Source: Mesobacillus persicus
Lineage (GTDB): Bacteria > Bacillota > Bacilli > Bacillales > Cytobacillaceae
DNA length: 54,533 bases
Assembly: GCF_900109925.1 (NCBI RefSeq)
Contig: NZ_FOBW01000022.1
Coordinates: 1-54,533 of the forward strand
Direction: 5' to 3'
This document shows, piece by piece, positions 3,815 to 29,718 of this stretch. Each line of letters begins with the position of its first letter. Positions within the stretch are counted from its first letter, which is position 1. The notes beneath the pieces were generated by a model. It saw only the letters and a program-made list of their open reading frames with translations, was not told the origin of the DNA and searched no databases. A program made the position numbers and the translations under genes.

Positions 3815-4035
3815 TAGGCGTGTTATAAGCCAATATTGATTCTATATACTGTTGATTGTGGATTGCTAGGACAAGGGAGACCTAGGTTGAATTGGTCCAC
3901 GTGAGGGACCGATTAACCCCACAGGAACAAAGCGACGAGGGGGCTCCCGGACCGCCCCAAGTTGCGCGAAGTGCCTAGAGCGTAAATCAACAACCGTTTT
4001 ACAGCCTTAAAAAATAAACAGTGTTAATACCCCTA
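3815..4035 (+). repeat. GC-rich modular inverted repeat, copy A (degenerate)
   Basis: Core 3850-3992 is bounded by TGTTGATT and AATCAACA and shares GGGAGACC, AGCGACGAGG, GGCTCCCGGAC and GCGAAGTGCCT with the better-preserved copy C. The left arm is eroded. About 34 extra bases form a GGTCC/GGACC hairpin near 3890-3912. Weak outer arms lie at 3815-3827 and 4023-4035. It sits between darA and holB with no gene of its own. Confidence 0.8.
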
Positions 4036-4063
4036 TTTAAAATATGTAAGCGAGTGATTCAGA

Positions 4064-5071
4064 TTGACTAAAAGCTGGGAAGAATTGGAAGAACTACAGC
4101 CAACCGTTTTAAAAATGCTAAGAAACAGCCTTTTGAAAGAACGGGTGGCCCATGCTTATTTATATGAAGGAATGAGGGGGACGGGAAAGAAGGAAATTGG
4201 GTCCTTGATGGCGAAATGTATATTCTGTCTATCTCCTATTGAGGGGTATAAACCATGTGAAACTTGCTTAAATTGTAAGCGAATCAACAATGGAAATCAC
4301 CCTGATATTCATTTGGTCGAGCCCGATGGCCTCTCGATAAAGAAAGCGCAAATCCATGCATTACAGGGGGAATTCGCCAAAACAGGTGTTGAGTCTAAAA
4401 AGAAGCTATATATGATTGTTCATGCTGACCGGATGACAACAAATGCTGCGAACAGTCTGCTTAAATTTCTAGAAGAACCTCATCCTGGGACCATGGCGAT
4501 ATTAATGACAGAACAGGCGCAACAAATTTTACCGACTATTTTATCTAGGTGCCAAATAATTGGTTTTACGCCATTATCTCCTAAAAATTTGGAAAAGCAA
4601 TTAGTTGAACAAGGAGTAAACCCTGAAGCTGCGCCACTATTTGCTCAGTTGACGAATAATTTTGAAGAAGCGTTAGAATTTAGCCAAAATGATTGGTTTG
4701 CACAAGCACAAAAAATAGTGGTAAAATTATATGAAGTGCTGAAAAAGAATTCCCTAGAAGCTATGGTCACTCTTCAGGAGAATTGGTTTGGGCATTTTAA
4801 AGAAAAAGAACAAATCGACCGTGGTTTGGATTTATTTCTTCTTATTTTTAAGGATTTATTATATATCCAGCTTGGAAAGAACGATCAAATCGTTAACCTG
4901 AGCGAACGTTCCCGCTTGGAGCAATATGCGCTTCAGACAACTGGACGGCGTCTGACTGAGCAAATGGCAGCAATACTAGAAGCAAAAAGAAAGTTGCATG
5001 CCAATATGAATCCCCAGCTACTGATGGAAGAGCTGGTGTTAAAATTGCAGGAGGGATCTTCACTTGTATGA
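4064..5071 (+). CDS. holB: DNA polymerase III subunit delta'
   Basis: Clamp-loader delta' subunit, 335 residues; it works with DnaX and HolA to load the beta clamp. A P-loop-like GMRGTGKK is at 36-43. A zinc-finger cysteine cluster lies at about 52-71 (C-x2-C, then C-x2-C-x2-C). The SRC-motif region reads LPTILSRCQIIGF. Translation most likely begins at TTG 4064: an in-frame stop lies at 4055-4057, and the N-terminus SWEELEELQPTV aligns with B. subtilis HolB. The ribosome site is weak. The stop overlaps the ricT start, implying coupling. Confidence 0.94.
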   Translation: MTKSWEELEELQPTVLKMLRNSLLKERVAHAYLYEGMRGTGKKEIGSLMAKCIFCLSPIEGYKPCETCLNCKRINNGNHPDIHLVEPDGLSIKKAQIHALQGEFAKTGVESKKKLYMIVHADRMTTNAANSLLKFLEEPHPGTMAILMTEQAQQILPTILSRCQIIGFTPLSPKNLEKQLVEQGVNPEAAPLFAQLTNNFEEALEFSQNDWFAQAQKIVVKLYEVLKKNSLEAMVTLQENWFGHFKEKEQIDRGLDLFLLIFKDLLYIQLGKNDQIVNLSERSRLEQYALQTTGRRLTEQMAAILEAKRKLHANMNPQLLMEELVLKLQEGSSLV

Positions 5072-5894
5072 AGTAGTTGGTGTCCGCTTTAAAAAGGCGG
5101 GAAAAATATATTATTTTGATCCCGGAGAACTCGCAATTCAAAAGGATGACTTCGTTATTGTTGAAACTGTTCGGGGTGTTGAATTTGGTAAAGTGGTTAT
5201 CCCCAAAAAACAAGTTGGCGAGAATGATGTTGTTCTACCTTTAAAAAAGGTTGTTAGAATTGCAGACCAAAAGGATCGTCTTATTGTAGATGAGAATAGA
5301 GCAGCCGCCAAAGAGGCGTATGATGTTTGTGGACAGAAGGTGAATGAACATCAACTAGATATGAAACTAGTCGATGTTGAATATACTTTTGATCGAAACA
5401 AGGTTATCTTTTATTTCACTGCAGATGGCAGAGTCGATTTCCGTGAGCTAGTGAAAGACTTAGCAGCCATTTTTCGGACAAGGATTGAACTTCGTCAAAT
5501 CGGTGTGCGTGATGAGGCCAAAATGCTTGGTGGAATTGGACCATGTGGAAGAATGTTATGCTGTTCAACCTTCTTAGGGGACTTTGACCCTGTTTCAATA
5601 AAAATGGCAAAGGATCAAAACCTTTCCCTAAATCCTACGAAGATTTCAGGGCTTTGTGGCCGTTTGATGTGCTGTTTAAAATATGAAAATGACGAGTATG
5701 AATCAGCAAAAGAATTACTTCCTGATCTTGGCGCATACATTGACACTCCGGATGGACGCGGAAAAGTGGTAGGTTTGAACATTTTGCAGCACGTGATGCA
5801 GGTGGATATCCCTAGCCAGGGACGTGTGTTGGAATATACCCTAGATGAGGTAACGAAGGAAGGCGCCGTTTCAATACAATCATCCACAGATTAA
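5064..5894 (+). CDS. ricT: RicT/YaaT, PSP1-domain regulator of RNase Y
   Basis: 276-residue PSP1-domain protein. In B. subtilis RicT (YaaT) joins YlbF and YmcA in the Y-complex, which carries Fe-S clusters, redirects RNase Y and supports sporulation, competence and biofilm formation. Six conserved Cys are seen: C161, C166, C167 (GPCGRMLCC) and C198, C203, C204 (GLCGRLMCC). The start is TTG 5064, preceded by GGAGGG and overlapping the end of holB; the nearby ATG at 5068 is in the holB frame. It matches the family start [14 protein letters not shown]. Confidence 0.95.
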
Positions 5895-5907
5895 TGAGGT
5901 GGAAAAG

Positions 5908-6261
5908 GTGGATAAAAAGGAGATCTTTGATTCAGTCAGTAATATGGAAGCCCAAATTGGAAATCTATATGTACAACTGGGCGAGTTAAAGCAACATTTA
6001 TCGGAAATACTCGAAGAAAATAACTCTTTAAAGTTAGAAAATGATCATCTTAGACGCCGTCTAGAACAAACGACAGAAAAGAAAGAGAACAAAGCTTTAA
6101 AGGGTAAAAAGCCTAACAACAATTCCCTAGATATCGGCGAAGGTTATGATAATCTTGCTCGCCTTTATCAAGAAGGCTTCCATATCTGTAATCTAAACTT
6201 TGGAAGTCCACGTAAAGAAGGAGATTGTATGTTTTGTCTTTCTTTTCTTAATAAAAAATAG
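5908..6261 (+). CDS. yabA: Replication initiation control protein YabA
   Basis: 117-residue negative regulator of DnaA that bridges DnaA and the DnaN clamp and limits re-initiation. An N-terminal coiled coil (about residues 5-60, heptad-rich) is followed by a linker and a zinc-binding tail H92-x-C94...C107-x2-C110 ending FLNKK. Start GTG 5908 has GAGGTGG four to five bases upstream and yields the family N-terminus DKKEIFD. GTG 5899 is also in frame but lies inside that ribosome site. It is third in the holB-ricT-yabA cluster, and a terminator follows. Confidence 0.94.
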
Positions 6262-6267
6262 TTGGCC

Positions 6268-6295
6268 ACCTTCCCCACCCAGGGAAGGTTTTTTT
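6268..6295 (+). terminator. yabA terminator
   Basis: Perfect 8-bp stem ACCTTCCC / GGGAAGGT followed by seven T residues. Confidence 0.88.
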
Positions 6296-6405
6296 CATAA
6301 GTTGGCCATAAAGTTTGATGAAAAAATATATCAAAGTGAAATGGGAACCTTTGATAAGGTACAAAGTAACAGTAAAGTCATTTCCTTAATGATGGAGGTA
6401 ATTCG

Positions 6406-7149
6406 ATGGTTGAATTAAAAGATGATGAAAGACTAGACTATCTCCTAGCAGAAGATTTACGGATTATCCAAAGTCCATCTGTATTTGCATTTTCATTGGA
6501 TGCTGTTCTGTTAGCAAGGTTTGTTTATGTTCCAATTCAAAAAGGAAGGTTAATTGATTTATGCTCAGGGAACGGAGTCATTCCACTTTTCCTCAGTACC
6601 CGGTCAAAAGGGACAATTACAGGAGTAGAAATCCAAGAACGGCTTTATGATATGGCGGTACGAAGCATTCAATATAATCATCTTGAAGAACGTCTTTCTA
6701 TGATTCATGGGGATATAAAGGAGATGTCACAAAAAATTGGGTTTGGAAAATTTGATATAGTTACCTGTAATCCCCCTTACTTTCCAACGCCTGCTAAAAA
6801 GGAAATCAACGAAAATGAGCATTTAGCTATCGCACGTCATGAAATTCTATGTACCTTAGAAGATGCAGTTAAAGCATCTAGCCAGCTTGTTAAACAAGGG
6901 GGCAAAGTAGCATTTGTACATAGACCAGATAGGCTAATTGATATCATTGAACTGATGAGGAAATATCGTTTGGAGCCAAAACGGATCCAACTTGTTTATC
7001 CAAAGCTAGGAAAAGAGGCAAATACGCTTCTGATTGAAGCCATCAAGGATGGAAATCCGGGATTAAAGATTGAAAACCCCCTGATTGTCTATACTGAGGA
7101 GGATGAATACACACCAGAGTTAAGAGATATTTTATATGGAAAAGAATAA
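6406..7149 (+). CDS. trmN6: tRNA1(Val) (adenine37-N6)-methyltransferase-type TrmN6 (YabB)
   Basis: 247-residue SAM-dependent N6-adenine methyltransferase. The SAM-binding [10 protein letters not shown] is at 51-60 and the catalytic NPPYF at 122-126, the signature of the TrmN6/YfiC group that methylates A37 of a tRNA. The start has ATGGAGG about seven bases upstream. It overlaps yazA by 14 nt, and yazA overlaps rsmI, forming a three-gene RNA-modification operon. Target tRNA is inferred from the family. Confidence 0.88.
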
Positions 7150-7423
7150 TCATTACTTCTATGTGCTGTCCTGCCGGGACGGAAGCTTATATGCAGGCTA
7201 CACTAATGACTTAGAAAAACGTGTGAAATTACATAATGAAGGAAAAGGTGCAAAATATACGAGGGGAAGAGGACCAGTTAAGTTGGTTTATTCAAAGGCT
7301 TTTGAAACAAAAAGCGATGCTCTAAAGGCTGAGTATGCCTTTAAACAAATGCCAAGGGCCAAAAAAAATGACTTTTTAACAAGTGAGCTAGGAGGAAATG
7401 ATGCAACAACAGAAGAGTTTTGA
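7136..7423 (+). CDS. yazA: GIY-YIG nuclease-superfamily protein YazA
   Basis: 95-residue stand-alone GIY-YIG domain of the UPF0213/YazA group. The family signature appears as YVL at residues 9-11 and YAGYTND at 19-25, with the conserved Arg at about 29 and Glu in KAEYAFKQM. Biological role is unknown; relatives have been proposed to act in DNA repair or structure-specific cleavage. It overlaps both neighbours (14 nt with trmN6, about 23 nt with rsmI), so it is translated as part of that operon. Confidence 0.88.
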
Positions 7424-8279
7424 ACAAGAAGATGAAAAAGGAATCTTGTATCTTGTCCCTACTCCGATTGGCAATCTTGAGGATATGAGCTTTCGTGCAC
7501 TCAGGATCTTAAAAGAGGCGGATTTGATTGCAGCTGAGGATACAAGAAACACAAGAAAGCTATGTAATTACTTTGAAATTGAAACTCCGGTTTCAAGTTA
7601 CCATGAGCATAATAAGGAATTGAGTGGTAAAAAGATCATTAATCAACTCAAAGAAGGTGCAAAAGTAGCGCTTGTTAGTGATGCAGGCATGCCTACGATC
7701 TCTGACCCGGGGTACGAGCTCGTAGGAGAGGCGATTGCCGAAGGCTTAACTGTCGTTCCATTACCTGGAGCCAATGCCGCCCTGACAGCACTGATTGCAT
7801 CTGGGATCAAACCGCAGCCGTTTTATTTTTATGGTTTCCTACAGCGTGGGAAAAAGGAAAAGCGAAAAGAGCTCGAGTCTTTAGCAAGGCAAGCTGCGAC
7901 GATGATCTTCTATGAGTCACCGCATCGACTTCGTGAGACGCTGGTGGTCATGAAAGAAGTGTTAGGTGATGATAGACAAATTGTCTTATGTCGAGAGTTG
8001 ACGAAGAGATTCGAAGAGTTTATTAGAGGGACTGTTGATGAAGCCCTCCAATGGGTAGAAGAGAATGAGGTTAGAGGCGAGTTTTGTTTAATTATAGAAG
8101 GTGGGAACTTGGCAGACCTGGAGGAAGAATCGATTTGGTGGGAAGAGTTAAGTATGACTGAACACGTAGATCATTATGTTAGTCAACAAAGTATGAATTC
8201 AAAAGACGCGATTAAGCAAGTAGCGAAAGACCGTGGAATTCAGAAGCGGGATGTATATCAAGCCTATCATGTGGAGTAA
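7401..8279 (+). CDS. rsmI: 16S rRNA (cytidine1402-2'-O)-methyltransferase
   Basis: Tetrapyrrole-methylase-fold enzyme that 2'-O-methylates C1402 in the ribosomal decoding centre, partnering RsmH on the same base. YLVPTPIGNLEDM, EDTRNTRKL, SDAGMPTISDPG and PLPGANAALTAL are all family signatures. Two ATG codons are adjacent (7398, 7401). With GGAGG at 7391-7395 the second has the better 5-nt spacing, so 7401 is chosen; the difference is one residue. About 292 residues, typical length. Confidence 0.95.
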   Translation: MQQQKSFEQEDEKGILYLVPTPIGNLEDMSFRALRILKEADLIAAEDTRNTRKLCNYFEIETPVSSYHEHNKELSGKKIINQLKEGAKVALVSDAGMPTISDPGYELVGEAIAEGLTVVPLPGANAALTALIASGIKPQPFYFYGFLQRGKKEKRKELESLARQAATMIFYESPHRLRETLVVMKEVLGDDRQIVLCRELTKRFEEFIRGTVDEALQWVEENEVRGEFCLIIEGGNLADLEEESIWWEELSMTEHVDHYVSQQSMNSKDAIKQVAKDRGIQKRDVYQAYHVE

Positions 8280-8466
8280 ATGGCCTCAGTAATAAAGGGT
8301 TTTCGTAAGGAGTGTTACTAAAATCCTAAAGCCGATTTTAGCGTAAGAACAGCTAGTTCGTTTGTAAGCTCTTTTATTAGTGATTGCTTTATTTAGCTCA
8401 TAATGAGCTGAGCTTGAATATATAGTTTTTGCTCTTTAAAAGCAACTAAGTTTGAGAAAAGAGCCT

Positions 8467-8497
8467 AAAAAAAAGGCTTCTCCTATTGGAGAAGCTT
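8467..8497 (-). terminator. abrB terminator
   Basis: Perfect stem GCTTCTCC / GGAGAAGC with a 4-nt loop. A run of A on the plus strand (8467-8474) supplies the U tract for minus-strand transcription. Confidence 0.88.
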
Positions 8498-8501
8498 TAC
8501 A

Positions 8502-8789
8502 TTAAGCCTTAACAGGCTCGAATGAATTTTGAATTTCACCTAGAAGTTGTTCTGCACCTTCACGGCTAAGGATTAATTTTCCGCCTGCAAGGGAGATGTT
8601 GCCATCAGATACTTCACCAGTAATATGGCATGTCATATTAGGCTTGTATTTTTTCAAGATGATACGATCGTCATCCACATAGATTTCAAGTGCATCCTTT
8701 TCAGCAATACCTAATGTTCTTCTTAACTCAATAGGAATAACTACACGACCAAGTTCATCAACTTTACGAACAATACCAGTAGATTTCAT
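8502..8789 (-). CDS. abrB: Transition-state regulator AbrB
   Basis: 95-residue DNA-binding protein with the N-terminal swapped-hairpin AbrB domain (TGIVRKVDELGRVVIPIELRR), nearly identical to B. subtilis over residues 1-55, and a divergent C-terminal multimerisation domain. It represses many post-exponential genes during growth. GAGGAG lies before the ATG on the minus strand. It is the only protein gene on that strand in the window. Its promoter carries Spo0A boxes, matching the known Spo0A-AbrB switch. spoVT downstream in the window is a paralogue in the N-terminal domain. Confidence 0.97.
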   Translation of the reverse strand: MKSTGIVRKVDELGRVVIPIELRRTLGIAEKDALEIYVDDDRIILKKYKPNMTCHITGEVSDGNISLAGGKLILSREGAEQLLGEIQNSFEPVKA

Positions 8790-8829
8790 TTGTAATAATC
8801 TCCTCTCTCATATAAAAAGTTCTCTATAA

Positions 8830-8846
8830 TTCGTCATTATTCGACA
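8830..8846 (-). promoter_or_regulatory. Tandem Spo0A boxes in the abrB leader
   Basis: On the minus strand TGTCGAA and TGACGAA lie 10 bp apart, about 12-28 bp after the predicted transcription start. B. subtilis abrB has the same arrangement, where Spo0A~P binding represses transcription. Confidence 0.85.
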
Positions 8847-8864
8847 TTTATTTTTATATTTTAT

Positions 8865-8893
8865 ATAATACCAGCCATTCCCATATCCGTCAA
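8865..8893 (-). promoter_or_regulatory. Sigma-A promoter of abrB
   Basis: Minus strand TTGACG (8893-8888), 17-nt spacer, TATTAT (8870-8865). Predicted start is near 8858, upstream of the Spo0A boxes. Confidence 0.82.
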
Positions 8894-9046
8894 TTATTTT
8901 ATTTTTTCTAGGAATGTTAAATTTTTACACATGGTGAAAACCTGATGAAGTAGGGGATTAACAAATGATTGAAGTTATTTTTAGAATTTTAAATAGGTTG
9001 CGAAATATTATTTGATTTTTATCATGGGTGAATAGTGTACACATTA

Positions 9047-9077
9047 TTCGACAAAATCCACGCAAGGCTTCGACAAC
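9047..9077. promoter_or_regulatory. Additional Spo0A-box-like pair upstream of metG
   Basis: TTCGACAAA at 9047-9055 is a perfect reverse-complement Spo0A box, and TTCGACAAC at 9069-9077 differs by one base; they are 22 bp apart. They lie just upstream of the proposed metG promoter. Function is inferred only. Confidence 0.5.
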
Positions 9078-9078
9078 G

Positions 9079-9107
9079 TGGAAAAGCTTATGGAAGAATT
9101 GTATAAT
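9079..9107 (+). promoter_or_regulatory. Probable metG promoter
   Basis: TGGAAA, 17-nt spacer, perfect TATAAT at 9102-9107, 47 bases before the metG start. The -35 matches 4 of 6. No T-box leader structure is apparent in this short leader. Confidence 0.6.
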
Positions 9108-9117
9108 ATCTAATTAA

Positions 9118-11094
<1,977 letters not shown>

Positions 11095-11120
11095 GTTTTT
11101 TAGCAAATTAGACAAACCAA

Positions 11121-11164
11121 AACATAGAAATGTTTCATTTGTAACATTTCTATGTTTTTTTATT
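11121..11164 (+). terminator. metG terminator
   Basis: 14-bp perfect stem (arms 11121-11134 and 11143-11156) followed by T-rich sequence. Confidence 0.9.
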
Positions 11165-11349
11165 TACTTTATTGCTAAACAGTTGACTGAAGAGATAGAA
11201 AATCGTTATGATTTTGTCAAATTTTTATGTTAATTCGGTGTACTTATTTAGTTGCCCATATTTGGAAATGATATTATCAGGTAAAATTGGGACATAAATA
11301 GCAAAATACTTTAGAATGTTATATTAGGTACAAAAAAGGAGTTTTTTTA

Positions 11350-12117
11350 ATGCTATTTGATACGCATGTGCATTTAAATGCAGAGCAATTCAACGACGAT
11401 CTGCAAGAGGTCATTGAAAGAGCGCAGGCGGAAGGAATCACTAAGATGGTTGTTGTTGGCTTTGATCGACCAACGATAACGAAAGCAATTGAGCTTTGTG
11501 AGACATATGAATTTATATTTGCCAGTGTAGGTTGGCATCCTGTTGATGCCATTGATATGCAACCAGAGGATTTAGAGTGGCTGAGGGAACTCTCTGCTCA
11601 TCCTAAGGTAGTCGCAATCGGTGAAATGGGACTTGATTACCACTGGGATAAATCACCTAAAGAGATACAAAAAGAGGTCTTTAAACAACAAATTCAGCTA
11701 GCAAAAGAGGTCAAGCTCCCAATTATCATCCATAATCGTGAGGCAACTGCTGATATCGTAGAAATCCTGCGAACAGAAGGTGCAGATGAGGTCGGAGGGA
11801 TTATGCATTGTTATAGTGGCAGCGTAGAAATTGCAAAAGAATGCATTGATATGAACTTCTATATTTCCTTAGGCGGACCAGTAACTTTTAAAAATGCAAA
11901 AAAGCCAAAAGAGGTAGCTGAAGCGATTCCACTTGAACGATTGTTAATTGAAACAGATTGCCCATATCTTGCGCCACATCCCTACCGTGGGAAACGAAAT
12001 GAGCCAGCTTATGTTAAACTAGTTGCGGAGCAAATCGCCGAGCTAAAAGGGATCTCTTATGAGGAAGTGGCAAAGGCAACAACTGAAAATGCTAAAAAAT
12101 TATTCGGCATAAACTGA
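11350..12117 (+). CDS. tatD: TatD-family metal-dependent hydrolase/deoxyribonuclease (YabD)
   Basis: 255-residue TIM-barrel metallohydrolase. Metal ligands of the family are visible: DTHVH at 4-8, GEMGLDYH near 92-99, IIHNRE, MHCYSG and ETDCPYLAPHPYRG near the C-terminus. TatD proteins have 3'-5' exonuclease activity in E. coli; the physiological substrate here is unproven. AAAAGGAG precedes the ATG. The next gene is yabE, separated by a promoter-containing gap. Confidence 0.9.
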   Translation: MLFDTHVHLNAEQFNDDLQEVIERAQAEGITKMVVVGFDRPTITKAIELCETYEFIFASVGWHPVDAIDMQPEDLEWLRELSAHPKVVAIGEMGLDYHWDKSPKEIQKEVFKQQIQLAKEVKLPIIIHNREATADIVEILRTEGADEVGGIMHCYSGSVEIAKECIDMNFYISLGGPVTFKNAKKPKEVAEAIPLERLLIETDCPYLAPHPYRGKRNEPAYVKLVAEQIAELKGISYEEVAKATTENAKKLFGIN

Positions 12118-12282
12118 TAGAAAATGCTGTCGAAATTTCGAAAGACTTGTCCTATTTATTCTTATTCTTCTAAGTTCTACAGCAATTCTTTGTTACATAG
12201 GATAACCATGTCGACAAGTCCTACTTTCCTTTTGAAAAAACATCTTGCATAATAAGGTCTATGTTCGGGGGAAGTTTTAGGG

Positions 12283-12312
12283 TTGACACGTCGGCAGCAT
12301 AATCTATATAAT
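12283..12312 (+). promoter_or_regulatory. Sigma-A promoter of yabE
   Basis: Perfect TTGACA (12283-12288), 18-nt spacer, perfect TATAAT (12307-12312). Transcription should start near 12319, leaving a very short leader before the ribosome site at 12324-12331. Confidence 0.85.
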
Positions 12313-12354
12313 CACTCGAGAGAAAAGGAGGCGTTTTTCATAGCAGCCAAAGAT

Positions 12355-13539: not shown

Positions 13540-13543
13540 TCAG

Positions 13544-13612: not shown

Positions 13613-13938
13613 TAGGCGTGTTTAAATACATTTAATATTCTTATTATATATATAGACGTAAATGTTGCAGAAATGTTTCAGATATTTTTTATTTTTTACT
13701 TTTTTAAAGAGATGTTGATTTCCACTACAGGCACTTCGCTTTCCGCGGGCAGTCCGGGAGCCTCCTCATCGCTTCGCTCCTGCGGGGTCTCCCTTGGCCT
13801 TGCACTCCCGCAGGACATTGAATTTTACATCGTTGAATATGCCCACGCACGAGAAAATGTGCAGTTCATTTTCGAGGAGTCTTCGTGCCTTCCGCTCCAA
13901 TCAACAGTAGTAAATCAACATTTACCTTAACACACCTA
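13613..13938 (-). repeat. GC-rich modular inverted repeat, copy B (long form)
   Basis: Core 13713-13906 is bounded by TGTTGATT and AATCAACA and lies in the opposite orientation to the other three copies. Outer arms TAGGCGTGTT (13613-13622) and its near reverse complement (13929-13938) enclose it. It differs from short copy C mainly by a 63-bp insert at 13816-13878 flanked by AGGA on both sides. It occupies most of the 427-bp gap between yabE and rnmV. A frame of about 85 codons inside is a by-product of the repeat. Confidence 0.88.
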
Positions 13939-13966
13939 TTTTTTACGGAGGAATGACAAAAAATAT

Positions 13967-20274: not shown

Positions 20275-20293
20275 ACGAGCGTATTTTTTTTTT
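20261..20293 (+). terminator. purR-ridA terminator overlapping the ridA stop
   Basis: 7-bp perfect stem CGCTCGT / ACGAGCG followed by a long T run. The ridA TAA (20272-20274) is in the loop. Confidence 0.88.
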
Positions 20294-20547: not shown

Positions 20548-20588
20548 AGTTAACTAGAATTTTATCTTTATTGAAGGTGGTGAACATA

Positions 20589-20876: not shown

Positions 20877-20899
20877 TAGATATACCATTCTTTTTTCAT

Positions 20900-20932
20900 C
20901 AGGGGCCTACTCACAAGTAAGGCTCTTTTTTA
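20900..20932 (+). terminator. spoVG terminator
   Basis: GC-rich stem GGGCCTACT / AGTAAGGCTC with one bulge and a CACA loop, followed by TTTTTT. Confidence 0.78.
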
Positions 20933-21317
20933 TTTCTGGTTCTTTTCTCAAAATGTTTCCAACTTTGTTGATTTGTGTTTATCTAAGTTAGATGATTACG
21001 GCAAAATAGTTTTTTATTACATACTTAATAACTACCTCGTGTCGAAATCGAATTAAGGATTTAAACAAAAATCTTCGCGAACCGCCTTAACTTTTAACCG
21101 TTGTGTAAAACACCCGCGCTATGAGCCTCTTTTAGTTTATAGATGGACACTATCGTCCCTGTACTATACCCTTTTTAAAACCCTATAAACCTATTTATTT
21201 CACTTTTTTAAATTTTATTCTATATAAACTTTGTAAAGGTTAAATGATGCCAGCCATCTCTTATGTTGAAATCAATTGAATTTTAGGATATATTTTTAAT
21301 GGATAAAAAGGTAAATT
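20933..21317. other. Gene-free stretch between spoVG and glmU
   Basis: About 385 AT-rich bases with no convincing coding frame, repeat or strong promoter. A single TGTCGAA near 21040 resembles a Spo0A half-box but is not paired. I see nothing else. Confidence 0.6.
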
Positions 21318-21329
21318 GGAGGCCTGTTG

Positions 21330-22703
21330 ATGTCTAATCGTTATGCCGTAATTTTAGCTGCCGGGCAGGGTACGAGAATGAAGTCGAAGCTATACAAAGT
21401 TTTACACCCTGTTTGTGGTAAACCTATGGTTCAACACGTAATTGATCATGTGAGAAGCCTTAATATAGACGAAATTGTCACCGTTGTCGGACATGGAGCA
21501 GAAAAAGTGAAGTCTGAAATTGGGGAAGTAAGCCAGTATGTTCTTCAGGAAGAGCAACTCGGGACGGCCCATGCAGTTATGCAATCAAAAGATATGCTTG
21601 CTGGAAAAGAAGGGACAACGATTGTTGTTTGTGGAGACACCCCGTTAATTAAAGGTGAAACGATGGAGGCACTGTTTCAACACCATGAAAAAACTGGTGC
21701 AAAGGCAACCATCTTAACAGCACAAGCAGAAGATCCGACAGGTTATGGTCGGGTCATGAGAAATGAGCAAGGTCTTGTTGAAAAAATCGTTGAACACAAG
21801 GATGCAACGGAAGAGGAAAGAAGAATCACTGAAATAAACACTGGTACGTATTGTTTTGATAATAAGAGCCTTTTCGAGGCATTGGAGAACGTTGGTAACA
21901 ACAATGTCCAAGGGGAGTATTACCTCCCGGATGTAATTGAAATACTAAAAGAGCAAGGTGAAACGGTTTCGGCCTTTGTCACACAGAGTTTTGATGAAAC
22001 TTTAGGAGTCAATGACCGAGTAGCACTTTCAGAAGCAGAGCGAATTATGAGAAGGCGTATTAATGAAGGGCATATGCGAAACGGTGTAACCTTGATTGAC
22101 CCTGCTAATACTTATATCGCTTCAGATGTTCAAATTGGTTCTGACACGGTCATATACCCTGGAACCGTTGTTTCTGGGCGAACAACAATCGGAACGGATT
22201 GTGTAATAGGCCCTAATAGTGAAATTAGTCATTGTGAGATTGGAAGTAAAACAACTATTCGTCAATCTTCCGCTTTTGATAGCAAAATTGGTTCCGAAGT
22301 GAATATCGGCCCATATGCTCATATTCGTCCGCAGTCACAGATTGACGATGAAGCCAAGATTGGGAACTTCGTTGAAATTAAAAAGGCTGTAATTGGTAAA
22401 GGAAGCAAAGCCTCTCATTTAAGTTATATTGGTGATGCCGAGGTTGGTCAAGATGTTAACATTGGCTGTGGTTCAATTACGGTTAATTATGACGGCAAGA
22501 ATAAACATTTAACTAAAATTGAAGATGGTGCTTTCATCGGATGTAACTCTAACTTAGTTGCTCCTGTTACGGTAGGGAAAGGTGCATATGTAGCTGCAGG
22601 GTCGACGATTACAGAGGATGTTCCTGGAGAAGGTCTGGGCATAGCACGTGCTCGCCAAGTGAATAAGGAAGATTATGTTGGGAAATTAAATTTAAAGAAA
22701 TAA
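21330..22703 (+). CDS. glmU: Bifunctional UDP-N-acetylglucosamine pyrophosphorylase/glucosamine-1-P acetyltransferase
   Basis: 457-residue two-domain enzyme making UDP-GlcNAc for peptidoglycan and teichoic acids. The N-terminal nucleotidyltransferase domain starts with [12 protein letters not shown] and includes the VVCGDTPLI metal site. The C-terminal half is a left-handed beta-helix of hexapeptide repeats (for example [15 protein letters not shown]). ATG 21330 has TGGAGG seven bases upstream; TTG 21327 is the weaker alternative. Directly upstream of prs with a 15-nt gap. Called gcaD in B. subtilis. Confidence 0.96.
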
Positions 22704-22718
22704 CCTGGAGGTTCCTTA

Positions 22719-23675
22719 ATGACGAATCAATATTTAGACCCAAACCTAAAAGTATTTACGCTAAACTCAAACAAAGCACTTGCTGAAGAAATTGCTAAAG
22801 TCATCGGTGTCGAATTAGGGAAATGCTCTGTATCAAGATTCAGCGATGGAGAAATTCAAATTAATATTGAAGAAAGTATCCGTGGATGTGATGTCTATGT
22901 TATCCAATCCACAAGTAGCCCGGTGAATGAAAATATTATGGAATTATTGATTATGATTGATGCGTTAAAACGCGCTTCTGCAAAAACAATCAATTTAGTG
23001 GTTCCATACTATGGATACGCACGTCAGGATCGTAAAGCGAGAGCTCGTGAGCCAATCACCTCTAAACTTGTTGCCAATCTACTTGAAACGGCAGGTGCTA
23101 CACGTGTTATCACACTCGACTTGCATGCTCCACAGATCCAAGGTTTCTTTGATATTCCAACAGACCAGCTAATGGGTGTTCCAATCTTGGCCGATTATTT
23201 TAAAAATCGTGAGTTCAGTGGAGATATAGTTATCGTATCACCTGACCATGGTGGTGTAACTAGAGCAAGGAAAATGGCGGAACGCTTAAAGGCTCCTATC
23301 GCAATTATCGACAAACGCCGTCCAAAACCAAATGTAGCAGAGGTTATGAACATTGTCGGGAATATCGAAGGAAAAACGGCTATCTTAATCGACGACATCA
23401 TTGATACAGCTGGAACGATTACTCTTGCAGCAAATGCACTTGTTGAAAACGGAGCGGTTGAAGTACTAGCATGCTGTACGCACCCAGTTCTTTCGGGTCC
23501 AGCAATTGAGCGAATTCAAAACTCTCAAATCAAGGAGTTAGTTGTAACAAATACGATTGCCCTTCCGGAAGAAAAGCGGATTGATAAAATTGTTGAATTA
23601 TCTGTCGCACCATTAATTGGTGAAGCAATTATTCGTGTCCACGAAGAGCAATCAGTTAGTACGTTATTTGATTAA
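22719..23675 (+). CDS. prs: Ribose-phosphate pyrophosphokinase
   Basis: 318-residue class I PRPP synthetase, converting ribose-5-P and ATP to PRPP for purine, pyrimidine, NAD, His and Trp synthesis. [13 protein letters not shown] (ATP site), the divalent-metal [14 protein letters not shown] and the PRPP loop [14 protein letters not shown] are intact. TGGAGG is seven to eight bases before the ATG. Placement after glmU is conserved. A hairpin terminator follows before the ctc region. Confidence 0.97.
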
Positions 23676-23688
23676 TACACTCCTGGTA

Positions 23689-23716
23689 GAAGGCTTGCCT
23701 AAGGCTAGCCTTTTTT
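23689..23716 (+). terminator. glmU-prs terminator
   Basis: Stem AAGGCT / AGCCTT enclosing a second short pairing, followed by TTTTTT. Confidence 0.8.
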
Positions 23717-23745
23717 CCATTTCAATCGTCCCTACTAAATTAGAC

Positions 23746-23771
23746 GTTTAGATTATTGCTTTTTGGGGCAT
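23746..23771 (+). promoter_or_regulatory. Sigma-B-like promoter of ctc
   Basis: GTTTAG, 14-nt spacer, GGGCAT matches the general-stress sigma-B consensus GTTTAA-N12/14-GGGTAT at 10 of 12 positions. B. subtilis ctc is a classical sigma-B gene. The start of transcription would be near 23778, about 230 bases before the ctc start codon. Confidence 0.6.
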
Positions 23772-23782
23772 TTTTTAAATGA

Positions 23783-23966
23783 TAGGCTGTGTAAAATCAC
23801 ATTGTTTATTTTACATACTGTTGATTGGAGCGGAAGGCACGAAGACTCCTGCGGGAGTGCAAGGCCAAGGGAGACCCCGCAGGAGCAAAGCGACGAGGAG
23901 GCTCCCGGACTGCCCGCGGAAAGCGAAGTGCCTGGAGTGGAAATCAACAGCGTTTGGCACGGCTTA
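23783..23966 (+). repeat. GC-rich modular inverted repeat, copy C (short form)
   Basis: Best-preserved short copy. The core 23819-23949 (131 bp) is bounded by TGTTGATT / AATCAACA. Inner paired segments include GGCAC / GTGCC (23836-23840, 23928-23932), GGGAG / CTCCC (23869-23873, 23902-23906) and CTCCTGCGGG / CCCGCAGGAG. Weak outer arms are at 23783-23795 and 23954-23966. It lies between the sigma-B-like promoter and ctc, so it is probably transcribed as part of the ctc leader. Open frames through it are not genes. Confidence 0.88.
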
Positions 23967-24005
23967 ATGATAAGTCTAAATATGTAGTTGGAAGGGGACA
24001 TAAGA

Positions 24006-24647
24006 ATGAGTGCTGTATTAAAAGCAAGTGAACGTAGTGATTCTTCACAAAAATCAAGCTTAAATCGACTTCGGGCTGAGGGGAATATCCCAGCTGTAAT
24101 TTATGGAAGTAAAAGGGAAAGTAAATCTGTGTATGTTGATAGTATTGAATTTATTAAAACGATTCGAGAAGTTGGCAGAAACGGAATTATCTCGCTTGAT
24201 GTAGACGGGAATAAAACGGATGTTATGTTAAGTGACTATCAGCAGGATTCCATTAAAGGGGATATCTTGCATGCGGACTTCTTTGCCGTAGATATGAAGG
24301 CAGAAAGGGAAGCAACTGTAAGGTTAGCATTAGTTGGAGAGGCAGCAGGTGTAAAGGATGGAGGCGTTCTACAGCAGCCTGTCCATGAACTATCTGTAAC
24401 AGCGACTCCAACCAATATTCCTCAAGTGATAGAGCTAGATGTTTCGAATCTTCAAGTAAATGAAAACTTGACTGTTGCAGATTTGAAGAATACGAGTGGA
24501 AGCTATTCGATTAATGATGAGGATTCCTTAGTGCTTGTATCCATTCTTCCTCCGAAGCAAGAAGAGGAAATCAACTCAGGAGAAGAGCAGGAGCAAGGAA
24601 CTCCAGAGAATGAAGAAGGCAGGGAAACAGAGTCATCTGAAAGCTAG
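24006..24647 (+). CDS. ctc: General stress protein Ctc, ribosomal protein bL25 family
   Basis: 213-residue two-domain 5S-rRNA-binding protein of the bL25/TL5 class. The N-terminal L25 domain (about 1-90) contains the RLRAEGNIPAVIYG motif; a beta-rich C-terminal domain follows, then a very acidic Glu-rich tail (about 185-213). In B. subtilis Ctc is induced by sigma-B and associates with the ribosome. Start ATG 24006 is seven bases after GGAAGGGG; six codons of in-frame upstream sequence overlap that site. Confidence 0.93.
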   Translation: MSAVLKASERSDSSQKSSLNRLRAEGNIPAVIYGSKRESKSVYVDSIEFIKTIREVGRNGIISLDVDGNKTDVMLSDYQQDSIKGDILHADFFAVDMKAEREATVRLALVGEAAGVKDGGVLQQPVHELSVTATPTNIPQVIELDVSNLQVNENLTVADLKNTSGSYSINDEDSLVLVSILPPKQEEEINSGEEQEQGTPENEEGRETESSES

Positions 24648-24654
24648 CAGAATA

Positions 24655-24682
24655 GACGTAACCTTAAGGGTTGCGTCTTTTA
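24655..24682 (+). terminator. ctc terminator
   Basis: Stem AGACGTAACC / GGTTGCGTCT (one G-U pair) followed by TTTT. Confidence 0.75.
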
Positions 24683-24760
24683 TGCTTTCCAATCAAAAGT
24701 GTAAAGTGGCAGACTGTTAATAGAGAAAGAATCAACCGGAAGGGAAATGGGTGGGAAGCT

Positions 24761-25321
24761 ATGAAATTAATCGTCGGATTAGGTAATCCAGGAAAACCAT
24801 ATGAAAATACTAGGCATAATATAGGTTTTGAAGTAATTGATGAACTCTCAAAACGCTTTAATATTCCATTAAGTCAAGCGAAGTTTAAAGGAATGTTTGG
24901 TGCAGGGTTAATTAAAGGAGAAAAGGTCATCCTTTTAAAACCGCTGACCTACATGAATTTATCAGGTGAATCGATTGGAGCTGTAATGGACTATTACGAT
25001 ATCGCCGTTGATGACTTAGTAGTGATCTATGATGATTTGGATCTTCCGACAGGTAAAATAAGATTAAGACAAAAGGGAAGCGCTGGAGGACATAATGGCA
25101 TTCGTTCGACGATTGCTCACGTTGGTACACAAGAGTTTAAACGGATTCGTGTGGGAATTAGTCGACCACAAAACGGGATGGCGATCACCGACTATGTTCT
25201 GGGGAGATTTACAAAGGAAGAGCAGCTTGATATGGAAAAGGCGGTTAAAAAGGCTTGTGATGCTTGTGAAGCTTGGGTCGATATTCCATTCCTCCAAGTA
25301 ATGAATCAATTTAATCAATGA
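24761..25321 (+). CDS. pth: Peptidyl-tRNA hydrolase
   Basis: 186-residue Pth (SpoVC), recycling peptidyl-tRNAs released from ribosomes. GLGNPG at 6-11 with the substrate-binding Asn9, catalytic His19 in NTRHNIGF, the [12 protein letters not shown] motif with the catalytic Asp and GSAGGHNG all conform. Upstream in-frame codons from 24671 overlap the ctc terminator and are rejected. The ribosome site GGGTGGGA is modest. Order ctc-pth-fin-mfd is as in B. subtilis. Confidence 0.96.
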
Positions 25322-25418
25322 TCATAAGTTTATACTAGGAACATAAAATAGGCTAAGTGAATAAGTTCCTCCTAATCCGTAAATAATAGGAATGATAGGA
25401 TATTAGGGAGGGAATCAC

Positions 25419-25649
25419 ATGGCTATGAATTATTATTGCCGTCATTGTGGAACAAAAATAGGTACATTGGATCGATTGTCAGTTCAAAGTGAAAGCCTAG
25501 GTTTCCATAAGCTGACAGAAGAGGAACGCCATGATATGATAACTTATGAAAGTAATGGTGACATTCAAATAAAGTCAATCTGTGAGGATTGTCAGGAATC
25601 ATATGAGCGCAACCCTAGCTATCATGAAAATGATTATCTGATTCACTGA
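25419..25649 (+). CDS. fin: Anti-sigma-F factor Fin (YabK)
   Basis: 76-residue zinc-binding protein that binds RNA polymerase and shifts forespore transcription from sigma-F to sigma-G. Two zinc pairs are visible: CRHC (7-10) and CEDC (55-58), with the highly conserved [16 protein letters not shown] between them. AGGGAGGG lies shortly before the ATG. Together with gin this gives the window both forespore sigma-switch regulators. I could not find a clear sigma-F promoter upstream. Confidence 0.93.
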
Positions 25650-25652
25650 CAC

Positions 25653-25680
25653 GCTTTGGACGTTGGTTCAAAGCATTTTT
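25653..25680 (+). terminator. fin terminator
   Basis: 9-bp stem GCTTTGGAC / GTTCAAAGC (one G-U pair), 4-nt loop, followed by ATTTTT. Confidence 0.82.
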
Positions 25681-25720
25681 CTATTTTTTTTATAGCAACA
25701 ATACTTTATAGAAATTCAAG

Positions 25721-25766
25721 CAAGCTAGATATATTCTAGCTCCAGTGCCAAAGAAGGCCTGGGGCA
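25721..25766. repeat. Two adjacent hairpins upstream of mfd
   Basis: AGCTAGA / TCTAGCT around a TATAT loop is followed at once by CCAGTGCC / GGCCTGG around AAAGAA. No T tract follows. It could be a remnant of a dispersed element or a leader structure; function is unknown. Confidence 0.45.
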
Positions 25767-25790
25767 TTTCTTAGTGAGGGAGAGGTTGGG

Positions 25791-28700
25791 ATGCAAGGGC
25801 TGAAAGCTCTTTTTAGTCGGCAGGATGATGTCCATTCTGTTGTTTCTGGGATGGAGGAAGGCTTAAAAGAACAACTTGTGGCTGGCCTATCTGGCTCAGC
25901 AAGACCTGTTTTTTTAGCCTCTATATACGAAAATACAAATCGAACAGTTCTTGTTGTTACGCATAACCTACTACAGGCACAAAAGCTGTATGATGATTTA
26001 CTAGGATTAATGGGGGAGAATGAGGTCTATCTATACCCGGCAAATGAGTTGATTGCCGCGGAGCTAAGTATATCCTCTCCTGAATTGAAAGCGCAACGCA
26101 TTGAGGCGTTAAATCACATGGCCTCAGGTAAAAAGGGGATTGTCATAGCGCCAATGGCTGGTTTTAGAAAGATTCTACCTCCTAAAGAGCTATGGTCGAA
26201 TTTCCAACTACATTTTACAGTAGGCGAAGAAATTGAAGTGGAAACGGTGCTAAAACAGTTTATTGATATGGGATATGTGCGTTCAGAGTTAGTTTCGGCG
26301 CCTGGAGAATTCAGTGTTAGGGGCGGCATCATTGATATTTATCCCCTTACGGCTGTTGACCCCTATCGAATTGAACTTTTTGATACCGAGGTGGATTCGA
26401 TACGTTCCTTTTCTTTAGAAGACCAACGTTCTAAAGATAAGTTAGAGACGGTCAAGATTGGTCCAGCCACCGAAATTTTACTTGAAACAAACCAACTTGA
26501 GAAGTTGATAACGGGTCTTGAATCGGGTTTAGCAAAAAGTTTGAAAAAGCTAAAGGATGAAAAAGCCAAGAACCAACTGATTCAAAACATCGGATATGAG
26601 CTTGAACAGCTTAAGAACGGTCAGAAACCGGACCAATTATTTAAATATTTATCCATCGCATATGGACAACATCACAGTTTGCTAGATTACCTGAGTGCTG
26701 AGGGACTTATTTTCATAGATGAGATTAGTCGAGTTCAAGAAATGAATGAGTCGCTAAATAAAGAAGAGGCAGAGTGGTATACAAGTCTTCTTGGTGAAGG
26801 ACAAATCGTCCATGACCTAAAAATATCTCACCATTTACCAGATCTGTTGCAACAGACAGCGAAGCCAATTATTTATACAAGTCTCTTTTTAAGACATGTT
26901 CCGAATACCAACCCTCAAAATATCATCAATGTTTCATGCAAGCCAATGCAAAATTTCCATGGGCAAATGAATGTTTTAAAAGCGGAAATCGAGCGCTGGA
27001 AAAAGGGGAATTATGCTGTCGTTCTATTGGGGCCCGATGAAGAACGGACACATAAATTGGAACGCGTTTTAGAGGATTATGAAATTGAAGCTATTCGTGT
27101 CGCGAATACCGATTCGATTATATTTGATAAGGTCCAAATTATTCAAGGTAGCCTGAATAGCGGGTTTGAAATGCCCATTCAAAAAATTGCAGTTATTACG
27201 GAAGAAGAGCTTTTTAATAAAAAAACGAAGCGGCCAAAGCGCCGCCAAAAACTATCAAATGCAGAACGAATTAAAAGTTATTCAGAATTAAAGGTAGGCG
27301 ACTATGTTGTCCATGTAAATCATGGAATTGGAAAGTATTTAGGGATTGAGACTCTAATTATTAATGGTGTACATAAGGATTATCTACATATTCGCTACCA
27401 AGGGTCAGATAAACTATATGTACCGGTTGAACAGATTGATCTTGTTCAGAAATATGTCGGGTCTGAGGGAAAAGAACCTAAGGTATACAAACTTGGAGGG
27501 AATGATTGGAAGCGGGTTAAGAATAAGGTCCAATCCTCCGTTCAGGATATTGCTGATGATTTGATTAAGCTTTATGCCGAAAGAGAGGCCAGCAGGGGTT
27601 ATGCCTTTTCACCAGATGGTGATATGCAAAGGGAGTTTGAAACGTCTTTCCCTTATGAGGAAACTGAAGATCAGATCCGGTCAATTCACGAAATTAAGCT
27701 AGATATGGAAAATGAACGACCGATGGACCGTCTTCTTTGTGGAGATGTTGGTTATGGGAAGACAGAAGTAGCCATAAGGGCAGCCTTTAAAGCGATTGCG
27801 GATGGAAAGCAGGTTGCGTTGCTCGTTCCGACTACTATTTTGGCTCAGCAACATTTTGAAACGATACGGGAAAGATTTCAGGAGTATCCGATTAATATTG
27901 GACTTTTAAGTCGGTTCCGGACTCGAAAACAACAAACCGAAACAATTAAGGGGCTAAAAGCTGGCACAATTGACATTGTCATCGGAACTCATCGAATCTT
28001 ATCAAAGGATATAACTTATCGAGATTTAGGGTTACTGATTATTGATGAGGAACAACGTTTTGGTGTCACTCATAAAGAAAAAATCAAACAATTAAAAACG
28101 AATGTGGATGTTCTTACTCTGACAGCGACCCCAATCCCTCGAACACTTCATATGTCGATGTTAGGTGTTCGTGATCTATCGGTCATTGAAACACCACCGG
28201 AAAATCGTTTCCCGATTCAGACCTATGTTATGGAGTATAACGGTGGACTCGTTCGTGAAGCGATTGAAAGGGAACTTGCAAGAGATGGGCAGGTCTATTT
28301 CCTGTATAATCGTGTCGAGGATATTGAGAGGAAGGCTGAAGAAATTTCAATGCTTGTCCCTGATGCTAGAGTTACCTATGCCCATGGGAAAATGTCCGAG
28401 AATGAGCTAGAGTCTGTTATGCTCGGTTTTCTTGAGGGTGAGTATGATGTCCTAGTTAGCACGACGATTATTGAAACAGGTGTGGATATCCCGAATGTAA
28501 ACACATTACTCGTCCATGACGCTGATAAAATGGGATTGTCCCAACTTTATCAGTTAAGAGGACGTGTTGGCCGCTCTAACCGTGTTGCTTATGCTTACTT
28601 TACTTATCGAAAGGATAAAGTACTAACGGAGGTAGCTGAAAAGCGCCTACAGGCCATTAAGGAATTTACCGAGCTTGGTTCGGGCTTTAAAATTGCAATG

Positions 28701-29327
28701 CGAGACTTATCTATCCGTGGCGCGGGGAATTTATTAGGCGCTGAGCAACATGGTTTCATCGATTCAGTTGGATTCGATTTATACTCACAAATGTTGAAAG
28801 AAGCGATTGAAGAAAGAAGACCAGATCATGAACAAAAGATCCGACCTTCTGTTGAAATTGATTTAGAAGTAGATGCGTATATTCCAGATACCTATATAAA
28901 AGATGGGCATCAAAAGATTGAAATGTATAAGCGATTCCGTGGACTCGAAACGATAAACGATATGGAAGAACTTCAGGAAGAAATGATCGATCGATTTGGC
29001 GATTATCCAGAAGAGGTAGCAAACCTATTTAAGGTCACTGAGTTGAAAATATTTGCGGGAATGGCTGGCGTTCAAACCATTAAACAAGCCAAACAGGAAA
29101 TTACAGTTCATGTATCTGAAGATGGTACTAGTCGTATTGATGGACAAAAGGTTTTTAAAATAAGCAATCAATACCGAAAGAATGTAGGACTCGGAATGGA
29201 TGGAAGTAAGCTAAAAATCGTTATCCATACAAAGGGGCTACAAAAAGATGACTGGCTCAATATTACGTTTGAAATGATCAAGGGGCTTCACGATTCTGTG
29301 AAAGAAGAAGAGAACTCTGTATCTTAA
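25791..29327 (+). CDS. mfd: Transcription-repair coupling factor Mfd
   Basis: 1178-residue ATP-dependent translocase that removes stalled RNA polymerase and recruits UvrA to template-strand lesions. Domain order: UvrB-homology N-terminus (about 1-350), linker, the CarD-like RNA-polymerase-interaction domain near 490-570 (GDYVVHVNHGIGKYLG), SF2 motor with Walker A GDVGYGKTE near 650 and DEEQRFGV near 752, TRG/RecG motif, and the C-terminal regulatory domain. Full length. It follows fin in the conserved order. The downstream gap has no clear terminator. Confidence 0.98.
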   Translation: MQGLKALFSRQDDVHSVVSGMEEGLKEQLVAGLSGSARPVFLASIYENTNRTVLVVTHNLLQAQKLYDDLLGLMGENEVYLYPANELIAAELSISSPELKAQRIEALNHMASGKKGIVIAPMAGFRKILPPKELWSNFQLHFTVGEEIEVETVLKQFIDMGYVRSELVSAPGEFSVRGGIIDIYPLTAVDPYRIELFDTEVDSIRSFSLEDQRSKDKLETVKIGPATEILLETNQLEKLITGLESGLAKSLKKLKDEKAKNQLIQNIGYELEQLKNGQKPDQLFKYLSIAYGQHHSLLDYLSAEGLIFIDEISRVQEMNESLNKEEAEWYTSLLGEGQIVHDLKISHHLPDLLQQTAKPIIYTSLFLRHVPNTNPQNIINVSCKPMQNFHGQMNVLKAEIERWKKGNYAVVLLGPDEERTHKLERVLEDYEIEAIRVANTDSIIFDKVQIIQGSLNSGFEMPIQKIAVITEEELFNKKTKRPKRRQKLSNAERIKSYSELKVGDYVVHVNHGIGKYLGIETLIINGVHKDYLHIRYQGSDKLYVPVEQIDLVQKYVGSEGKEPKVYKLGGNDWKRVKNKVQSSVQDIADDLIKLYAEREASRGYAFSPDGDMQREFETSFPYEETEDQIRSIHEIKLDMENERPMDRLLCGDVGYGKTEVAIRAAFKAIADGKQVALLVPTTILAQQHFETIRERFQEYPINIGLLSRFRTRKQQTETIKGLKAGTIDIVIGTHRILSKDITYRDLGLLIIDEEQRFGVTHKEKIKQLKTNVDVLTLTATPIPRTLHMSMLGVRDLSVIETPPENRFPIQTYVMEYNGGLVREAIERELARDGQVYFLYNRVEDIERKAEEISMLVPDARVTYAHGKMSENELESVMLGFLEGEYDVLVSTTIIETGVDIPNVNTLLVHDADKMGLSQLYQLRGRVGRSNRVAYAYFTYRKDKVLTEVAEKRLQAIKEFTELGSGFKIAMRDLSIRGAGNLLGAEQHGFIDSVGFDLYSQMLKEAIEERRPDHEQKIRPSVEIDLEVDAYIPDTYIKDGHQKIEMYKRFRGLETINDMEELQEEMIDRFGDYPEEVANLFKVTELKIFAGMAGVQTIKQAKQEITVHVSEDGTSRIDGQKVFKISNQYRKNVGLGMDGSKLKIVIHTKGLQKDDWLNITFEMIKGLHDSVKEEENSVS

Positions 29328-29474
29328 CCATATGGATGTAACACAAATGTAAAATTGGAAAGTGTTTCAAAATTCACAGACAAGGGTAATGGATAAGTAT
29401 CAATAAATTGGAATGTTTATCCTACCTCAACTGGTGGTAATTACCCTATTGTATAGGTCTGCTTCTTTGAAATT

Positions 29475-29718
29475 GGCTCTGTTAAAGGACATTGTTGAAT
29501 TTGCTTACCGTTGATTGAAGCGGAAGGTGCTTGACTCCTCGAAAATGAACTGCACATTATCTCGTGCGTGGGCGTATTCGAGGAAGTTATTCAGAGTCCT
29601 GCGGGAGCAGCGGGACAGGTGAGACCCCGCAGGAGCGCAGCGACGAGGAGGCTCACCGCCCGCCCCGCTGTTCGCTGAGCACCTGGAGCGGAAATCAACA
29701 TTCTTGTTTAACAGAGCC
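29475..29718 (+). repeat. GC-rich modular inverted repeat, copy D (long form, second subtype)
   Basis: Outer arms GGCTCTGTTAAA (29475-29486) and TTTAACAGAGCC (29707-29718) are perfect reverse complements over 12 bp. The core is 29509-29700. An internal 61-bp module at 29536-29596, flanked by TCCT, matches 42 of the first 44 bases of the module in copy B. The central stems differ from copy C but keep pairing (GGTGC/GCACC, GTGAG/CTCAC). It lies between mfd and the spoVT promoter, in a 568-bp gap whose remaining bases hold nothing else recognisable. Confidence 0.9.

Follow-up and report, generated by a model that had tools for sequence, protein, structure and literature searches.

Four GC-rich intergenic repeats of Mesobacillus persicus read as insertions of an IS1595-type MITE with a structured core

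The analysed stretch of Mesobacillus persicus DNA (54,533 nucleotides of contig NZ_FOBW01000022.1; the window hereafter means this whole stretch) holds four GC-rich inverted repeats, copies A to D, which raise the question of whether they are mobile elements or structured RNAs adopted by their host. A sequence-only reading had named both possibilities: a non-autonomous element, or a structured RNA domesticated in leaders. The copies lie in the darA-holB, yabE-rnmV, prs-ctc and mfd-spoVT gaps, respectively, where the gene names (darA, holB, yabE, rnmV, prs, ctc, mfd, spoVT) are those of that reading or our own presumption. We conclude that a miniature inverted-repeat transposable element (MITE) with the ends of IS1595-family transposons has very probably inserted at all four sites. 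The identity as a MITE is firm, while the role of the GC-rich centre, here called the core, is inferred. All four cores were located exactly where the sequence-only reading had put them, with B as the one inverted copy that it had announced, and they do stand out from their surroundings (G+C 0.54-0.62 in the cores versus 0.40 for the window). The coding status of the four copies was judged from a mechanical list of open reading frames (ORFs) alone.

Ends, target duplications and the IS1595 link

The repeats belong to a large and widespread family. A first search with copy C as the query returned 47 matching stretches in the genome, with 40 of 162 candidates scored. The window copies align with 29 further genome copies, so that the similarity extends beyond short motifs, and from this alignment of 33 copies the covariance model R1 was built with 30 short-form ones. 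Running such a model against the own and related genomes had been proposed as a check. R1 finds at least 115 matches in this 4.64-Mb, 40-contig genome, a lower bound because 150 of 1071 first-look candidates were scored. With up to 55 candidates scored per genome, matches were present in 51 of 61 genomes, the own one included, reaching from the genus itself to further genera within the family and to additional families within the order. Hence, the family is not unique to the window.

The ends quoted by the sequence-only reading, of the TGTTGATT/AATCAACA type, are present (CGTTGATT in copy D) but internal. Similarity runs past them in the printed flanks, beginning with GGCTGTGTTAAAGGACATTGTTGATTTT about 34 bp to the left and finishing with TTTAACASAGCC about 16-18 bp to the right. 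The elements are bounded by terminal inverted repeats, each about 28 bp long, with the pattern GGCTSTGTTAAA-N6-TGTTGATTT, which are clear in copies C and D and degenerate in A and B. On the right, AATCAACA forms the inner portion of the terminal repeat; on the left, TGTTGATT repeats this sub-motif once more. A search for the left-end pattern with up to 3 mismatches found 23 occurrences, and its reversed control found 0.

The flanks of the elements carry a duplication of exactly 8 bp. In a test that admitted only copies with both ends matching the pattern (25 copies), the identity between left and right flanks was 0.74 at 8 bp, 0.55 at 7 bp and 0.52 at 9 bp; shuffled 8-bp flanks gave a mean of 0.41 (standard deviation 0.039, maximum 0.54 among 500). 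In the window, the duplication at copy B immediately precedes the GGAGG that belongs to the downstream gene.

Empty sites in close relatives had also been suggested as a comparison, and a clean one was found at copy C: genome G003 of the same genus (L259) carries an uninterrupted TTTTTTTAATGATAAGTCTAAA, with the duplicated target present once. Syntenic gaps shorter than 3 kb were located by tblastn and scanned for motifs of the core and of the ends. The core motif is absent in 30 other listed prs-ctc gaps, one of which (L266) has the end motif, and both motifs are absent in 28 other listed mfd-spoVT gaps; the latter gap measures 231-297 bp in six same-genus genomes versus 550 bp here. Among 67 darA-holB gaps, the core occurs in another species (L205) and a weaker motif in L248, and the 68 yabE-rnmV gaps hold one weak core motif (L229) and a core-less short element (L204).

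The same ends are found on IS1595-family transposons. Plasmid records searched with the left end as query pointed to ISCaje6, which is annotated as IS1595-like and has similar ends; 83 of 397 Bacillales genomes contain relatives of its transposase (E 1e-20). Among 56 partly overlapping loci with IS1595-type transposase matches, 33 contain the end pattern with up to 4 mismatches and 24 contain it on both strands, where base-shuffled sequences predict 0.15 matches in total. The clearest case, locus L150 from another Bacillales genome, is an element of 1902 bp with 0 mismatches at both ends, TTCTTTTA on either side and a second ORF within; its transposase of 344 residues matches the IS1595 model NF033547 at 1.7e-62. 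These ends, together with the 8-bp duplication around an IS1595 transposase gene, lead us to identify the family as an IS1595-type MITE. L150 is one of seven such loci with 0-2 mismatches per end, the others being L140, L143, L159, L163, L164 and L167. The idea of a non-autonomous element was thus upheld by the terminal inverted repeats, the 8-bp duplications, the empty site and the presence of the same ends on IS1595-family genes elsewhere in Bacillales.

Based on the ends and duplications, we postulate that an IS1595-type transposase acting in trans would cut at the GGCTSTGTTAAA-N6-TGTTGATTT ends, and that the element would then be inserted in AT-rich intergenic DNA, duplicating 8 bp. At E 1e-20, nothing related to the ISCaje6 transposase turned up in the draft genome, which also has 0 matches to PF12762 (DDE_Tnp_IS1595), a domain present in 17 of the 61 genomes. 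Since PF12762 is missing from the genome, it is also missing from the element, which is a derivative and not itself an IS1595 insertion sequence. As no matching transposase was found in the draft, the copies probably no longer move and are now in decay.

The plasmid search also returned small single-gene cassettes with both IS1595-type ends and no annotated transposase (L114, L115 and L117, from Alkaliphilus and Aneurinibacillus plasmids). These resemble mobile insertion cassettes, and the cargo of L115 is a GNAT protein.

Table 1. Coordinates and sequence details of the four copies in the window
Feature	Position	Strand	Details
Copy A, full MITE	3817..4006	+	190 bp; core without its left half (lost or replaced)
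Copy A, outer ends			degenerate; GGCGTGTTATAA.. / ..TTTTACAGCC
Copy A, left 8-bp target duplication	3809..3816	.	TTAATATA; right copy 4007-4014 TTAAAAAA, 6/8 match
Copy A, core (bounds of the sequence-only reading)	3850..3992	+	final, weakest R1 match listed, 34.1 bits
Copy B, full MITE	13698..13936	-	239 bp, long core
Copy B, outer repeats			both degenerate; GGTGTGTTAAGG.. at 13936, ACTTTTTTAAAG.. at 13698
Copy B, 8-bp target duplication	13690..13697	.	TATTTTTT; identical at 13937-13944 (8/8)
Copy B, core	13713..13906	-	long form, extra hairpin module ~13833-13878
Copy C, full MITE	23785..23964	+	180 bp, short-form core
Copy C, left target duplication	23777..23784	.	AAATGATA; right copy 23965-23972 TAATGATA, 7/8
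Copy C, core	23819..23949	+	GGAGCGGAA at 23827-23835, GGAGTGGAA at 23934-23942
Copy D, full MITE	29475..29718	+	244 bp; outer repeats best kept of the four
Copy D, left terminal inverted repeat	29475..29502	+	GGCTCTGTTAAAGGACATTGTTGAATTT
Copy D, right terminal inverted repeat	29691..29718	-	inward reading GGCTCTGTTAAACAAGAATGTTGATTTC
Copy D, left target duplication	29467..29474	.	TTGAAATT; right copy 29719-29726 TTGAATTT, 7/8
Copy D, core	29509..29700	+	long form, extra hairpin module ~29538-29583

The fold of the core and its orientation

The folded centre that had been proposed is supported by the RNA fold of copy D (z = -5.1) and by compensatory changes across the family, which preserve it. 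In 105 distinct rows fitted to the covariance model, 6 antisense rows included, 94.2% of the cells are paired (82.0 when shuffled), with 399 two-sided changes versus 73.5 in shuffled alignments (standard deviation 12.1). Sliding the partner by 1-3 columns lowers pairing to 32-49%. An alignment made with MAFFT only, of 100 rows without the antisense ones, gave 90.5% paired and 314 two-sided changes (shuffled 80.3 and 75, standard deviation 11). Among the 60 best-scoring cores, the top strand folds better than its complement in 56 when RNA energies are used and in 58 when DNA energies are used. No Rfam covariance model matched the window copies at gathering, and in four loci with cores, searched up to E 1, the sole match (E 0.92) was outside the core.

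The segment GGAGYGGAA, which had been reported on both sides of the centre, is exact in copy C only: in B one of the two sides reads GTAGTGGAA, in D the left side reads GAAGCGGAA, and no left core half can be recognised in A. In the fold, the left GGAGCGGA comes to lie opposite the right GGAGCGGA, with GC pairing GC and GGA opposite GGA. The pair at columns 13-237 changes (CG 71, GC 11, UG 7, UA 5) and genome G040 has variants such as GTAGCGAA on both sides, both of which favour a structural reading of GGAGCGGA. Judging from this pairing pattern, the apparent direct repeat is best read as a putative non-canonical stem stretch, GGA facing GGA around a paired GC, in which we infer sheared G-A pairs. 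Taking GGAGCGGA for a target duplication of the core is not preferred, as it is nearly invariant across the contexts inspected.

In this genome, the cores tend to point along the transcription of flanking tandem genes. With flanking ORFs of at least 120 amino acids, the 115 copies comprise 64 at co-directional sites, 14 convergent, 11 divergent, 25 without usable flank and 1 too far from a gene, and 53 of the 64 cores at these tandem sites are sense (binomial p = 1e-7); other cuts gave 57/72 (80 amino acids), 43/53 (160) and 26/33 (200). Tandem sites of genome G023 are sense in 9 of 9 cases (14 of 29 matches fetched). Among the listed matches, and with the origin placed from the ctc gene, 15/26 lie on the leading strand in G040, 6/22 in G042 and 21/23 in G023. 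On clear-majority contigs of the present genome, 52 of 64 tandem sites run along the genes, and 11 of 20 convergent or divergent sites run along the majority strand. A replication-strand cause of the bias was set aside, as transcription fits better, weakly (Fisher p = 0.035). Together, the orientation and the strand folding bias weakly support selection on the transcribed form. On the reading preferred here the interior is a passenger, a long hairpin with a conserved fold. When read as sense RNA, it would make insertions tolerable; sense copies between co-directional genes would then survive better.

Other carriers and rival explanations

The association between core and ends is not a strict one. 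By a substitution-only pattern (random rates 2.9% left and 0.8% right), 35 of the 115 cores have both IS1595-type ends, 15 the left only, 25 the right only and 40 neither. Copy B falls among these 40 despite its visible degenerate ends and perfect duplication, and some of the end-less cores are cases of decayed ends missed by the pattern. Conversely, core-less elements occur in this genome (L072, 74 bp; L319, 73 bp; L075, 89 bp, part deleted and with a perfect duplication) and in two others (L204, 75 bp; L174, 81 bp).

The core was also found in other carriers. Many R1 matches in the complete genome G017 form inverted pairs: an element of 1899-1917 bp is common to L365, L366, L367, L375 and L376, and a form of about 1.4 kb to L368 and L372, each enclosing two inverted cores. 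These elements have similar outer ends, and their flanks are for the most part repeats of each other. The ORF listing covered L365 and L368: a truncated frame of 251 residues in L365 matches the IS1182 model (7.9e-64, 216 bits versus a cut-off of 270), and L368 has two shorter frames. In a Peribacillus plasmid (L091), the core adjoins an intact IS1182 transposase gene. The G017 element resembles the MITE in carrying the same hairpin, one on each side of the transposase frame, and the IS1182-like element of G017 and the IS1182 of L091 differ from it in their ends, CAGATTGTCGAGAAAGG / CAGGCTGTCGAAAAACC, with the core internal. Meanwhile, genome G023 displayed a second kind of end: the left end is of the GGCTGTTTTCG type in L411, L413 and L417, and most right flanks finish ACGAAAA-like (14 loci, by eye). 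Ends of the GGCTGTTTTCG type also surround an IS1595 transposase in a Niallia plasmid (L426, duplication TTATTTAT). As a separate observation, G017 loci L369-L382 include inverted core pairs 0.5-2.5 kb apart without the 1.9-kb element, several with GGCAAAGTTNTGGTCTA-like outer flanks.

These carriers invite a speculative proposal, which we regard as rather doubtful: the core might be a transferable 'tolerance module', acquired separately by several unrelated Bacillales transposon families because its read-through as RNA renders an insertion harmless or beneficial, selected for its fold and orientation and moving between families by its own route. Another explanation is that the core is itself mobile, entering and leaving transposons at the GGAGCGGA repeats, with the IS1595-type MITE only its commonest vehicle here. 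The occurrence of the same core with two kinds of IS1595-type ends, on both sides of an IS1182-like frame and in end-less copies speaks for it, as do the core-less forms that retain just one GGAGCGGA (L069, with an unrecognisable right outer end, and L174, from another family, GTTGATTGGAGCGGAAATCAAC). Yet the flanking repeat is GGAGCGGA or near it in the printed contexts, when a target duplication should vary by site; no enzyme for core movement was found, and the same core-less products would arise if the repeats at the hairpin base slipped or recombined. We consider independent movement of the core unlikely, if still worth weighing.

A host structured RNA, either a leader regulator or an mRNA stabiliser merely present in many copies, is improbable. 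Compensatory changes and the orientation bias of this genome are what the domesticated-leader reading would predict, and the covariation, the stability of the top strand in those 56 cores and the sense placement at those 53 tandem sites all fit it. Against this stand the terminal repeats, 8-bp duplications and empty site, which show insertion, and the missing Rfam match. The core is absent from the listed C and D gaps of relatives, so these are not conserved leaders, and domestication in leaders was not demonstrated. Far less credible still is a REP/BIME-like repeat (repetitive extragenic palindrome/bacterial interspersed mosaic element) processed by a RAYT (REP-associated Y1 transposase). The genome has two Y1_Tnp genes, and the core is palindromic with a GGAG tetranucleotide; but the 3.3-kb locus of neither gene contains a copy of the family, an unrelated repeat (GGGGACGGTTC..) flanks one of them, and 8-bp duplications or long terminal inverted repeats would not be expected of REPs. 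The RAYT link was thus dropped. Locus L038 (G000:C26 ~40696-41031), where a RAYT-like Y1 transposase gene is flanked by the unrelated palindromic GGGGACGGTTCTTTTGCTTCC and its complement, is itself a candidate REP system.

Several observations weigh against insertion of an IS1595-type MITE with a selected passenger. The duplication of copy A is weak and half of its core is missing, and the junction of copy D has no clean alignment to relatives. Given 40 of 115 cores with neither end and 40 of 115 with one, the core is not strictly tied to the MITE. In a 40-contig draft, a multi-copy transposase could be lost in assembly gaps. The covariation counts are not independent events, because related sequences share changes. 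Gene strands came from a crude ORF caller, which left 25 of 115 copies without usable flanking ORFs at 120 amino acids. Of the two relatives tested for orientation, G040 is not significant (9/13 sense at tandem sites, 26 of 32 matches fetched), and the sense bias of G023 is inseparable from its leading-strand bias. In an 80-locus set, 13 of 23 matches are on the plus strand. To these is added the one chance-level match of a mis-spaced end pattern in 26 loci, with a shuffle-like count in 30 loci (5 mismatches), unlike the correctly spaced pattern, which is positive at IS1595 loci.

Some neighbouring features were observed along the way. A second GC-rich repeat, AAGCGGAAGCGCCTTG..GGCGCTGG, breaks core copies in L080 (own genome) and L350 (by eye). 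A similar sequence stands in the rnmV leader of other species (L178, L184, L205; by eye), and this leader may therefore be a repeat hotspot. Group II intron sequence (Rfam RF02005, RF00029) breaks or adjoins core hairpins of this genome at L070 2724-2962, L361 4988-5079 and L349 1364-1455. The darA-holB gap is about 470 bp in many relatives and 12-90 bp in others. Here it spans about 250 bp (window 3812-4064), mostly copy A, so that the extra gene fitting the longer gap, presumably yaaR, appears absent.

Comparison with known systems

No description of the family was found in full-text literature on Bacillus repeats, MITEs, IS1595 and IS1182, a search that left subscription literature mostly outside, and the four core strings retrieved unrelated papers only; nor is it described in the available part of PMC9208149. 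We classify the element as a new family of IS1595-type MITEs with a passenger that is unusual, shared and conserved in structure. Naming it as such explains repeats in many Bacillales genomes, and poses a testable question: whether a folded passenger can spread among unrelated transposons by buffering the host against insertions.

The ERIC, Correia and RUP-type elements are intergenic MITEs with a strong fold in mRNAs, from other bacteria and with other transposase families; by description only, the present MITE is like them in being intergenic and strongly folded. It can likewise be set beside bcr1-bcr18 by description only, which the accessible portion of PMC6542083 presents as short mobile Bacillus repeats of 100-400 bp, confined to the B. 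cereus group and associated with TTTAT motifs. Bhal-1 of Bacillus halodurans, a conserved stem-loop family of type I (74 bp, 36 copies, according to the part of PMC2267715 at hand), could on the same descriptive footing be a relative or unrelated. IS1595 insertion sequences such as ISCaje6, with their non-autonomous derivatives, also belong to the closest known systems. As far as the available text of PMC8101967 goes, duplications of 8 bp are usual for IS1595 elements, and GG ends for Merlin, their eukaryotic relatives. Our MITE shares the 8-bp duplications, a family trait, and the GGCTCTGTTAAA-N6-TGTTGAT ends of loci L150, L140, L143 and L167. Unlike these insertion sequences, it is without a transposase and measures 180-244 bp in the window; its large conserved hairpin is probably a further difference.

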